A DNA stretch of 46,620 nucleotides from Candidatus Aenigmatarchaeota archaeon (GTDB lineage: Archaea > Aenigmatarchaeota > Aenigmatarchaeia > QMZS01): assembly GCA_030600555.1 (NCBI GenBank), contig JAUVLW010000006.1, positions 1 to 46,620 of the forward strand. The letters are read 5' to 3'. Made by a program: the position numbers and the translations under genes. Below, piece by piece: positions 3,230 to 27,876 of the stretch (within the stretch, counting starts at the first letter, position 1; every line of letters starts with the position of its first letter). The notes under the pieces are model-generated. The model was not told the origin of the DNA. It searched no databases and saw only the letters and a list, made by a program, of their open reading frames with translations.

Positions 3230-3679
3230 TTAATTAATGAAATGATATTCATCCGCAAGGCAAGGAGACCCATAATAGACCCCATTTTTAGATTTCATTT
3301 TTAGATGAATTAAAGAGCCGCCAATTATTATAGCCAGAAGAGACAATGTAAGGGATAGCATAAACCACATTATTGAAATTTCTCCTAGCATTAAAGCCAT
3401 AAACCCACTCAGGAGAATAAAGCCCCCTGACGCAAATATACTCATTTTAATAAGATTTTTTATTATTGTATTTGAATATTCAATTCCCGTGTTTATTTTT
3501 ACATGCCTTCCGCAGTGAGGGCAGGTTACTGTAATAGATTCGCCGGGTTTTCCTTTATCCGGCACTGAAGCCTCAAAAGCTTTGTATGTGTTTGTTTTAC
3601 TTTTGATAAGAATAATGTCCAAGTTTCGTTCTTTTGTTGAGGTAATACTCTTCTTGCACCCTATTTTTATTATTGTCAT
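3230..3679 (-). CDS. Two-TM protein with CPHCG zinc-ribbon motif, paralogue A
   Basis: 149-aa ORF, strongly similar to 3826..4284 (shared KAFEASVPDKGKPGESITVTCPHCGRHVKINTG). Confidence 0.75.
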   Translation of the reverse strand: MTIIKIGCKKSITSTKERNLDIILIKSKTNTYKAFEASVPDKGKPGESITVTCPHCGRHVKINTGIEYSNTIIKNLIKMSIFASGGFILLSGFMALMLGEISIMWFMLSLTLSLLAIIIGGSLIHLKMKSKNGVYYGSPCLADEYHFIN

Positions 3680-3830
3680 AATATAGCCTTATTTTTGTTA
3701 AATGGAATCGGGGAGATTTTCACTCGCACTCTTTTTGCTTCACAAAAGTAGGAAAGGTTCCTGTGAAGGTAGCATTATACCACTAGACTACGAGCCCATA
3801 ATTTTTAGAATACTAATTTAATTTATTAAT
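3234..3830. repeat. Tandem segmental duplication, unit 1 (gene + decayed tRNA)
   Basis: Starts ttaatgaaatgatattcatcc, ends ..gagcccataatttttagaatactaatttaatttattaat; parallels 3833..4605. Confidence 0.8.
3703..3797 (-). pseudogene. Truncated tRNA-Val copy
   Basis: Minus strand GGGCTCGTAGTCTAGTGGTATAATGCTACCTTCACAGGAACC joined to ..GTGAAAATCTCCCCGATTCCA; lacks the 3' anticodon stem, variable loop and 5' T-stem present in 4308..4572; acceptor mismatched. Confidence 0.85.
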
Positions 3831-4284
3831 AATTGATGAAATGATATTCATCCACAATATTAGGAGCTCCATAATAAACCCCATTTTTAGATCTTATTTT
3901 TAGATGAAGTAGGTAGAAACCGCCACCTATGGCTAAAATAGGTAATATGAATATCATCATAAGCCACATCATTCTAATATCTTCCATAATCAAACCCATA
4001 AAACCTGATAGGAGAATGATAGTCATTGATACAAATACCCCCATTTTAAGAGAATTTTTTATTAGCACATTTGAATATTCAACACCTGTGTTTATTTTTA
4101 CATGCCTTCCGCAGTGAGGACAGGTTACTGTAATAGATTCGCCGGGTTTTCCTTTATCCGGCACTGAAGCCTCAAAAGCTTTGTAGGTATTCGTTGTTGT
4201 TCCGCCTCTGACGAGAATTAGGTCTAAGTTTCGCTCCTTTGTTGAGGTAATACTATTCCTGCACCCTATTTTTATTATTGTCAT
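3826..4284 (-). CDS. Two-TM protein with CPHCG zinc-ribbon motif, paralogue B
   Basis: 152-aa ORF, paralogue of 3230..3679. Confidence 0.75.
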   Translation of the reverse strand: MTIIKIGCRNSITSTKERNLDLILVRGGTTTNTYKAFEASVPDKGKPGESITVTCPHCGRHVKINTGVEYSNVLIKNSLKMGVFVSMTIILLSGFMGLIMEDIRMMWLMMIFILPILAIGGGFYLLHLKIRSKNGVYYGAPNIVDEYHFINY

Positions 4285-23370: not shown

Positions 23371-23736
23371 TTAAATACTATCCAAATATTTATTTCTCGC
23401 TGATTTAATTGTTCCAGTTACCCCGAGTGACATGATGCAGACTTTTTTCCCATAGATTTCAGGTATCAATGCAAGGGAGAGTCTTACAAGTTCAACATCT
23501 TTTGGAAGACATTTCAATACAAATATCTGCTGTTTCGTGTCATATAATTCCTGGAGAAATCTGAAATTTGTTTGTCCAAATCTTAGGCTTCCGAATAAAT
23601 TAATTGTGTTGCTAAAAATAGCTTTAATTAACTCTTCAAATTCTATTTTCTGATCAGAGATAACTTTAAATATGAGGTATCTTTTTTTCTCTCTGCAGGA
23701 AGAGGGCAGGGTTTTAGTTCTATTTTCCATGTTCAA
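23371..23736 (-). CDS. rnp2: Ribonuclease P protein component 2 (Pop5 family)
   Basis: REKKRYLIFKVISD...LFGSLRFGQTNFRFLQELYDTKQQIFVLKC; overlaps rnp3. Confidence 0.85.
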   Translation of the reverse strand: MNMENRTKTLPSSCREKKRYLIFKVISDQKIEFEELIKAIFSNTINLFGSLRFGQTNFRFLQELYDTKQQIFVLKCLPKDVELVRLSLALIPEIYGKKVCIMSLGVTGTIKSARNKYLDSI

Positions 23737-24421
23737 TATAAACAGAGTCCAACGGTTGTTTTAGTTTTTCCCTGTTCTTAAAAATTAATTTCTCAGCCAG
23801 TTCTGAGTTTGCAATTAAGGCATCATACATTTCTGCTCCGAGGCAGAAAGACAGACTCGATAATTCTTTTCCGCTTCTCAGTTCAAATAGTTCAACTGCT
23901 CCGGAGTTTACAATAAATTTTGTTTTTAGTCTGAGGCACAATCTAAGAATCTCTTTCATTCTGTTTAATTCTTTTATCCGTTCCATACCTTTTGACAACA
24001 ATAGTTCTCTGAAATTTAATTCTATAATAGTGTTATGGATTTTTGCTTCTCTGCAACAGATGTGGTCGAGTCCAGAATCATGCCTGCTTTTTTCAGGATG
24101 GCATAAAATATCAACATAATCAGAGGAACATGCCAGCCGGTTTATTTCATAATCTCCTCCGGACACTAAAATCACCTCAACTTTTCTTCTCAATTCTTTT
24201 GCTTTTTTCAGAATGTTATTTTGATCTTCCTGAATGAGAACTCCGGTAATTAAGTCTAGATTGGTTTTTTTCTTAAGTTCCTGAATTTTTGTTAAATATT
24301 TTTCCAGATTTTCATTGGAATTCATCACTAAACATACGCCTGTCAGTCCAAGAGTTTCTGCTCTCTCCAATAAATTCTCAATGTTTGCTGATGCATTTAA
24401 ATCATAAAATTTGTGCTCCAT
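23720..24421 (-). CDS. rnp3: Ribonuclease P protein component 3 (Rpp30 family)
   Basis: MEHKFYDLNASANIENLLERAETLGLTGVCLVMN; DILCHPEK..DSGLDHICCREAKIHNTIIELNF. Confidence 0.85.
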   Translation of the reverse strand: MEHKFYDLNASANIENLLERAETLGLTGVCLVMNSNENLEKYLTKIQELKKKTNLDLITGVLIQEDQNNILKKAKELRRKVEVILVSGGDYEINRLACSSDYVDILCHPEKSRHDSGLDHICCREAKIHNTIIELNFRELLLSKGMERIKELNRMKEILRLCLRLKTKFIVNSGAVELFELRSGKELSSLSFCLGAEMYDALIANSELAEKLIFKNREKLKQPLDSVYIEHGK

Positions 24422-24785
24422 ATTAATAATTGTCTAATAAATTACGCTATTTAATGGAATTAAGTTCACATGAACTTCACAGGAAGTTTTTTTGGGTTTG
24501 TGAACCTGTTTAGAAAGATGTGTGAACTTTAGTATTTCAGTGTTTATAGCAGTATATGCCAAGGATTCGCGTGTACAAGACGTGAAGTTGATGGTTCCAC
24601 GTGAAACAAAGGTGTCCCTCCAAATGCAGTAAATATGAACTTCATTTCCAAGTGAACTTTGAGTTCACGTTCATTTTTGCGTGAACTGAGTTTATCCAAT
24701 TTTTGTTTGCAGATGGTTTGAATGGAACAGTTTCATTTCAATAAATACAAAATAAATTCTTTTATTTTCAGATAATTAAATAAGA
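24422..24785. promoter_or_regulatory. Non-coding region with clustered GTGAAC/GTTCAC repeats and a parS/ORB-like site; candidate origin, centromere or regulatory locus
   Basis: No ORF >=60 aa. Exact GTGAAC at 24500, 24522, 24652, 24681; GTTCAC at 24464, 24663; inverted repeats at 24462-24477, 24495-24506, 24652-24668; GGTTCCACGTGAAACA at 24593-24608. Confidence 0.55.
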
Positions 24786-25247
24786 TTACATCCCAACATC
24801 AAAAGCTTTCCTGAAGATAAGACCTGAAATCACAGATGTAATTATAAATATTCCCAACCACCCAAGTTGATTTCCAACAAAAGGAATAGAAAAAGGAAGG
24901 TTCAAAACAGCGTTGCTAAAGAACATTGGGATTATATAAAAAGCAACAAGAACAACGAGGCTGGATATCATCATAGGTTTCATAGTTTGTCCCATCATTT
25001 TCTTCTGAATTCCAACGCTTTTTGACATTAATTTGTTTAATTTTTCGGTTTTTGGAGCTTCGCCATCTTTGGTGTTTTTCATTTCTTTGCTAACAATTTT
25101 CATTTCTTTATTTGTTTTTTTCATCTCCGCTTTTAGTGCTTTAACTAAATCAACATCCATTAATTTTTTCTGGATTAGTGTTTGAATTAGGCTAACAGAA
25201 ATAGTAATTAGCACAATCATCAGGACTTCCATAACTATATAAAACAT
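24786..25247 (-). CDS. DUF106 / EMC3-YidC-Oxa1-like membrane protein
   Basis: 153 aa: TM, charged helical hairpin, MMGQTMKPMMISS, TMs. Confidence 0.82.
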   Translation of the reverse strand: MFYIVMEVLMIVLITISVSLIQTLIQKKLMDVDLVKALKAEMKKTNKEMKIVSKEMKNTKDGEAPKTEKLNKLMSKSVGIQKKMMGQTMKPMMISSLVVLVAFYIIPMFFSNAVLNLPFSIPFVGNQLGWLGIFIITSVISGLIFRKAFDVGM

Positions 25248-26604: not shown

Positions 26605-27876
26605 CTAAACTTTCTTTTTCCGCTTCCTTTTTTTCTTCCCCCCGCTTTGTTTAATAATCGCAAAATTAATTGGATTCTTTATTTTTTCGCAGAGAGGAAT
26701 TGGTTGGCAAATTCCAACATCTCTGTAAAAAGACCCATTGCTGCAGTTGGGTGGAAGGATTCTTTTGTTTTGTTTCTTGTGCCAGATTAACTGGCCTCTA
26801 ACATAATTTTCTTTTAATCCGACTTTCTTTCCCCAATCCATAACCATTTTTTCAACTTCAAGCATTGGCCAGTTGCAACTTCTTAAAAAAGTTGTGAGTG
26901 TGAACACGCTTCTTTTCCTCCCATCAGGAATTCCTTCAAGAATTTTTTGGATGCATGGGGGAAAGTTTCCTTCTTCAACCCGGTCTTTATAGGATTCCAT
27001 AAACGTAGGTGCAGAGGATTCTTTTGGTTTTTCTTCTCTTCTTCTTTCAAACCAGTCATAGGCATCAACTATGAGTCTTCTCGCATCAGTTCCTTCAGTA
27101 TTAATTTCTTTGAAAACCACATTTTCCATTTTTGCGTCTTCAATTTTAAATTTTTCCAGTTTATCTGGTTCAATTAGGATGGAAGCAAGACCTGTTTTTT
27201 CGTGGAGTGAATAAGGCATTCTGAACAGATGTCTTGAACTCCAGTCTTTTTCAACTTCCACGTATTTGAAAGGGTTTTTGTCTTCTATTGCTTCACCTTT
27301 TGTCAGTTCTTTTATTGATCCTGCATGTTCCACAAGTTTGTCCCAGAGTTCTTCTTTAATTTGTTCCCTAAGATAATTTGACAGGGTTTTTGGAAGTCCT
27401 GGGTATAATAATCTGATTTCTTTGTCATCAAGGATTTCTTCCGCCGGGAAGTTCTCCCAGAATACGCAGAAATGAAATCCCCGCCTCCCGGAAAATTTCA
27501 GGATATATTTTAAATTGTATTTTTCAATAAAATCTCTTATAAGGCAAGCTGTGATGTTTGCTTCTTCCATACCCAGGCCTGAATCAATATCAATCACCCA
27601 ATCAAAGCCTGTTCTTAATTCGTCGTAGTTTCTTTCATCTATCAGCAAAGGATTCCTCCATCGTTCCACAGAGCCATGAAAAGACACTGCTCCGCGTTCG
27701 GTTAATCTTGCAATATCATTTGGATAAAATATTGTGGTTGGTCTTTTGAAATACATCCCATCAACATTGCGCGCAACAACTTCCCGATTAATCCCGAATT
27801 TGCACATAATTTCCTGCAGTTTTTCATCTGAGTAATATTTTATTGTCTGGGCTCTTTCGGGTTTTTTTAGTTCCAT
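26605..27876 (-). CDS. priS: DNA primase, PriS catalytic domain fused to PriL-CTD-like domain
   Basis: VIDIDSG metal motif; SGRRGFHFCVF; RHLFRMPYSLHEKTG; then FPPCIQKIL....LPPNCSNGSFYRDVGICQPIPLCEKIKNPINFA with four Cys. Confidence 0.88.
   Translation of the reverse strand: MELKKPERAQTIKYYSDEKLQEIMCKFGINREVVARNVDGMYFKRPTTIFYPNDIARLTERGAVSFHGSVERWRNPLLIDERNYDELRTGFDWVIDIDSGLGMEEANITACLIRDFIEKYNLKYILKFSGRRGFHFCVFWENFPAEEILDDKEIRLLYPGLPKTLSNYLREQIKEELWDKLVEHAGSIKELTKGEAIEDKNPFKYVEVEKDWSSRHLFRMPYSLHEKTGLASILIEPDKLEKFKIEDAKMENVVFKEINTEGTDARRLIVDAYDWFERRREEKPKESSAPTFMESYKDRVEEGNFPPCIQKILEGIPDGRKRSVFTLTTFLRSCNWPMLEVEKMVMDWGKKVGLKENYVRGQLIWHKKQNKRILPPNCSNGSFYRDVGICQPIPLCEKIKNPINFAIIKQSGGKKKRKRKKKV

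Follow-up and report, generated by a model that had tools for sequence, protein, structure and literature searches.

A parS-like site in an Aenigmatarchaeota genome is probably a detached Orc1 box and a candidate element of replication control

The conserved block at positions 24595-24629 of the window (the whole stretch of 46,620 nucleotides analyzed here) is, judging from its sequence, very probably an Orc1/Cdc6 box (ORB). Replication appears to start not at this site but at the ORBs beside orc1, because the asymmetry of third codon positions flips there and not at 24.6 kb. We lean slightly toward regarding the window site as a detached ORB within a composite element of about 180-220 bp, in which half-sites of another type have near-fixed spacing, and we give an even chance to the proposal that the element would act as a control site that is not an origin.

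Positions 24593-24608 read GGTTCCACGTGAAACA, a 16-mer that is mostly contained in the ORB core (Table 1) and that agrees with the parS consensus TGTTNCACGTGAAACA at 15 of 16 positions, the first base being the one that differs. The earlier note had described this fit with exact letters and coordinates, and its placement of the site in an intergenic region, about 0.65 kb from a RecJ-like gene and in a window devoid of an Orc1/Cdc6 gene, was confirmed. The primase said to lie about 3 kb away was found as a primase-like gene, although its distance is about 2.0-3.3 kb and its primase_S match (26.6 bits) falls slightly under the 26.8 cut-off. This gene is weakly matched by the small as well as the large archaeal primase subunit, each slightly under the Pfam cut-off, and is possibly a fused primase. 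Elsewhere in the window, two adjacent minus-strand genes encoding 149 and 152 aa (3230-4284) have very similar N-terminal halves and are apparently a tandem duplication. The right part of the gap beyond the site is AT-rich, and the EMC3-like right neighbor is exchanged for other genes in several relatives. In a genome-wide count, the copy of GTTYCACGTGAAAC in the window was the only one in the whole genome to which the window belongs (G000; 815 kb; 34 contigs; completeness 82%), also when two mismatches were allowed.

Table 1. Coordinates of the features discussed, in the window unless contig C11 is named.
Feature	Position	Strand	Length	Remarks
Pop5/Rpp14-like gene, after rpp30	23371-23736			Pfam PF01900
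rpp30 (RNase P p30), left neighbor	23720-24421	-		Pfam PF01876
Intergenic gap holding the site	24422-24785		364 bp	between rpp30 and the EMC3-like gene
Palindrome GTTCACATGAAC	24464-24475			one base from the palindrome GTTCACGTGAAC of the array on C11, which carries orc1
TTCAC/GTGAA half-site cluster	24465-24686			starts 24465, 24476, 24500, 24522, 24582, 24601, 24652, 24664, 24681
ORB core TTCCACGTGAAACAAAGG, proposed Orc1/Cdc6 box	24595-24612	+		profile score 23.8
Conserved block, ORB plus TGTCCCTCCAAATGCAG	24595-24629	+	35 bp	kept in relatives
EMC3/TMCO1-like membrane protein gene, right neighbor	24786-25247	-		Pfam PF01956
DHH/RecJ-like gene	start 25256			648 bp from the site; domains DHH and DHHA1
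Primase-like gene	26605-27876			about 2.0-3.3 kb from the site
Small winged-helix gene	C11:13168-13464		98 aa	one side of the TTCAC array
ORC-like AAA+ gene	C11:14081-15142			other side of the TTCAC array

The conserved sequence extends rightwards beyond the parS core as AAAGGTGTCCCTNCAAATNCAG, which is no part of the parS consensus. The extended block, TTCCACGTGAAACAAAGGTGTCCCTNCAAATNCAG, fits the ORBs found directly upstream of orc1 throughout the class, which take the form TTCCA-NNN-GAAAY-NAAGGGGTG and in many cases stand as a divergent pair; in a genome of another family (G012), one of the four boxes upstream of orc1 is GTTCCACGTGAAACAAAGGGGTGT, with a 17-mer core identical to that of the window site. 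A weight matrix built from 63 ORB candidates upstream of orc1 in other genomes scored the window site at 23.8 bits; the runner-up in the window reached 9.3, and the maximum over 100 shuffles was 21.0. The genome's own orc1 ORBs scored 28.2, 27.0, and 22.2. These reference ORBs were gathered by a core pattern that the window site fits too, so that it is the flanks, and the margin over the runner-up in the window, that carry independent information. With two mismatches allowed, the pattern TCCANRNGAAAYAAAGGKG matched at four places in the genome, three of them at orc1 and the fourth at the window site, which is the only one free of mismatches. Among 85,462 species genomes, the extended pattern YTCCACGTGAAACAAAGGKGT matched in five records only, all from Aenigmatarchaeota/Aenigmarchaeota; four correspond to genomes of the window's family, the fifth to G012. 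The resemblance to an ORB that the earlier note had seen in the extended site is thus borne out by the profile score, the conserved flank, and the match to boxes upstream of orc1.

ORBs of this kind are generally found close to the initiator gene. When strict ORBs were collected from 158 genomes of the class, 65 of 76 were located on the orc1 contig no more than 6 kb from the gene (42 upstream and 23 downstream of it), and five of the 11 not near orc1 were the site of the window's family. The window site shares with the known archaeal boxes (those of Sulfolobus Orc1-1 and A. pernix ORC1) the TTCCA-N3-GAAAC dyad half followed by an A/G tract; its profile is common with that of the ORBs at orc1, and the genome codes for a matching Orc1. 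It differs from them in being single and away from orc1, in showing no origin signature, and in having half-sites of another type at fixed distances.

Bacterial parS sites lie close to the origin and are usually multiple. The window site shares the core GTTNCACGTGAAAC with the parS of ParABS systems, and the fit to the consensus described above is what speaks for a true parS bound by ParB/Spo0J. However, the ParB_N domain (PF02195) was not found in the genome itself (82% complete) nor in 40 of the 41 genomes searched, the exception being one weak hit under the cut-off, while the same search recovered it in 10 of 14 control genomes. No second parS-like site was found in the 815-kb genome, the single one and orc1 are on different contigs, and the flank that is conserved is of the ORB type. 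The parS half of the earlier reading was rejected on these grounds, and we leave it next to no chance; the site is probably not a centromere of the bacterial type. The likeness to parS arises because the spacer of the ORB is CGT here.

Conservation in relatives follows the ORB and the geometry around it. Chance would not account for the site: the 34-bp extended block is kept in seven genomes of the window's family and is absent from the 149 class genomes outside it. Identity over the 35-bp block is 83-100% in seven relatives and 71% in G002; the remainder of the element retains 51-58% in distant members, and distant flanks no longer align. Within 250 bp there are nine TTCAC/GTGAA half-sites (maximum of six in 200 Markov shuffles), a cluster that had escaped the earlier note; the one starting at 24601 falls within the ORB. 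Half-sites recur at about -120, -75, -14/-24, and +38 from the ORB in nine genomes of the family, not all of the four positions being occupied in every genome and the one at +38 missing in the window; the half-site near -120 to -131, which here is the palindrome at 24464-24475, recurs in relatives. The arrangement GTGAA-N66-74-ORB is present in 8 of the family's 11 genomes and in 6 of 147 others, and the reversed-pattern control gave none.

A conserved non-coding RNA gene could also account for a long conserved block, and the terminator-like hairpin at 24652-24668 would suit it, but this hairpin is a palindromic pair of half-sites and the conserved part matches an ORB. A known RNA family or a tRNA at the site was rejected, as no Rfam match reached gathering scores and a Qrr hit was at chance level (E 0.41); we see very little chance for an RNA gene of any kind. 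In most genomes of the family the element lies directly upstream of rpp30, and one palindrome is close to the rpp30 start, as would befit an rpp30 operator, with Orc1 or some other protein regulating transcription from it. In fact, Orc1-2 of Saccharolobus, a member of the Orc1 family, is a transcription regulator (PMC9738581). In G009, however, the element occupies another intergenic gap, next to an ABC-transporter gene, with its spacing kept, and it is missing upstream of rpp30; the operator was rejected for this reason and we regard it as highly unlikely. Given this other gap and the differing right-hand neighbors in relatives, the element is probably kept for itself and not as a promoter of rpp30.

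The place where replication starts was approached through the G-versus-C skew at third codon positions, comparing predicted genes of the plus and minus strands on each side of a site. At the orc1 ORBs, the difference flips from -0.27 to +0.32 in G000 and from -0.43 to +0.17 in G006, and the best breakpoints on the respective contigs (C11 and C5) lie at these ORBs or within about 2 kb of them. At the window site, the sign is the same on both sides in G000, with +0.26 (95% interval 0.17-0.37) and +0.21 (0.08-0.31), and no switch was seen at the corresponding site in G006 (-0.23 and -0.13), G010 (+0.32 and +0.10), or G009 (+0.09 and +0.15), the interval of the second value just including zero in both G006 and G010. 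G008, with few genes to the left of orc1, gave no clear skew signal; G031, a single-contig control, gave no usable signal and no switch at orc1, and G002 was readable on one side only. Plain GC skew in the window tracks gene direction and is uninformative. The inflection near 24.5 kb that the earlier note had proposed to check for is therefore absent from the third-position skew in four genomes, which rules against a main origin at the window site. Of its proposal of an origin element, the ORB stands, and the asymmetry places the origin at orc1. An oriC has several ORBs on either side of an AT-rich stretch, next to an initiator gene; here there is one ORB, in a window without orc1. The origin of an integrated plasmid was rejected too, the neighbors being core genes.

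A secondary, weak, or dormant origin, fired by Orc1 under some conditions, would be in keeping with the ORB and with the AT-rich gap to its right, and dormant origins have been described in archaea (PMC4595724). We consider it unlikely, though, since the asymmetry switch is absent in the four genomes, the single ORB is not accompanied by the divergent pair and the AT-rich stretch present at orc1, and no initiator gene stands beside the site.

The earlier note had named no binding protein for the site, and the candidate is now the single Orc1 of the genome (C11:15431-16627), which has three ORBs of its own. It is nearest to PDB 2qby chain A (Sulfolobus Orc1-1), and the ORB-binding proteins in PDB 2qby and 2v1u (A. 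pernix ORC1) are close to it; binding by Orc1 would be the natural reading of the conserved ORB. An ORB-like box, TTCCAAAGGAAATATAGGTATG, at C11:15413-15433 overlaps the orc1 start codon, and likewise in other members of the family, so that Orc1 may regulate its own gene.

The same contig carries a second set of sites. Five copies of the palindrome GTTCACGTGAAC occur at C11:13500-14074, upstream of orc1, as part of a TTCAC array. Along C11 the winged-helix gene precedes this array, and the AAA+ gene, a first ORB, an AT-rich stretch, a second ORB, and finally orc1 come after it. Matches to the winged-helix gene exist in 84 of the 158 genomes of the class, and the weakest of them may be other winged-helix proteins; at the 30 best of these loci, an AAA+ neighbor is present in 21 and TTCAC arrays spaced at 11 bp are common, and in several other families the locus lies about 7-35 kb from orc1. 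AlphaFold models (pLDDT 88 and 87) gave the AAA+ protein an ORC/Cdc6-like fold and the winged-helix protein a general winged-helix fold with MarR/TFE-like matches only. Either protein may bind the half-sites, as their gene neighborhood suggests. The locus at C11:13168-15142, whose array of TTCAC half-sites has TTCACGTGAA palindromes phased at 11 bp, recurs across the class, and the core of its palindrome is that of bacterial parS; a second replicator and a segregation system are candidate identities for it.

The half-site cluster of the window is of this array type, which raises the idea of a centromere-like or chromosome-organizing site bound mainly by the array winged-helix protein, with the ORB secondary. 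TTCAC arrays phased at 11 bp lie near orc1 in many families, and AspA of pNOB8, an archaeal winged-helix protein, binds and spreads at a centromere (PMC5120986). Yet the most conserved part of the element is the ORB and not the half-sites, and the fold search returned only general winged-helix matches for the protein concerned, so that we find this role decidedly unlikely.

In other families, many genomes of the class have a second ORB cluster on the downstream side of orc1, at a distance of 1.1-5.4 kb. Most of these clusters lie 3' of polB, and a TctA-like gene often follows (e.g., L228:1501-1560, L238, and L245). Around these polB-linked ORBs there are 80 TTCAC half-sites against 11.5 expected, the enrichment being 3-fold at the ORBs upstream of orc1, 7-fold at the polB-linked ones, and 11.5-fold at the sites of the window's family. 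This composition, rather than synteny, suggests that the window element corresponds to the polB-linked cluster and has become detached in the window's family; in the family stretches that were examined, no polB turned up close to the element.

For the non-origin control site that we propose, the winged-helix domain of Orc1 would bind the dyad and its AAA+/ISM part the A/G tract, and the half-sites would be occupied by another protein, for which the two products of the genes next to the TTCAC arrays, the small winged-helix protein and the ORC-like AAA+ ATPase, are the candidates. Replication would normally initiate at the orc1 ORBs rather than at the element, which, as the detached second cluster, would control Orc1 by titration, by remodeling, or by resetting it upon fork passage. 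As the locus has no origin signature, control of Orc1 would be its most likely role. Among tested precedents the nearest is oriC2D of Haloarcula hispanica, an ORB-rich region that has no origin activity and restrains oriC2 (PMC3936714). Both are ORB regions outside the active origin, and negative control of initiation is what we propose for the window element as well; at the window site an ORB is present and the asymmetry does not switch. However, oriC2D has 11 ORBs directly beside the initiator gene, downstream of cdc6E (PMC3936714), while the window element has one, lies on another contig than the initiator gene, and carries half-sites, and its control function is a prediction. One box is few for titration, so remodeling or a signal of fork passage, as at crtS, is to be considered. 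The crtS of Vibrio cholerae is a single conserved site that lies apart from the origin and acts on the initiator RctB (PMC5991422). It resembles the window element in logic only, and no relation in sequence is claimed; it is bacterial, with a different initiator and two chromosomes.

Literature searches brought up no study of ORBs, or of how replication is controlled, in Aenigmatarchaeota. The case also shows that a parS-like hit in an archaeon calls for a comparison with ORBs. It is possible, though doubtful for now, that the element represents a new type of archaeal replication-control locus, an Orc1 box held at fixed spacing with the sites of a second origin-linked system, which would tie Orc1 activity to the winged-helix, AAA+, and phased-TTCAC system or to fork passage. 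If our proposal of a non-origin control site is right, an initiator box is kept outside the origin, independently of its neighbor genes and in fixed register with sites of a second kind, and a DNA fragment of about 200 bp together with two or three named proteins would be at hand for studying how an archaeon with a small genome limits initiation.
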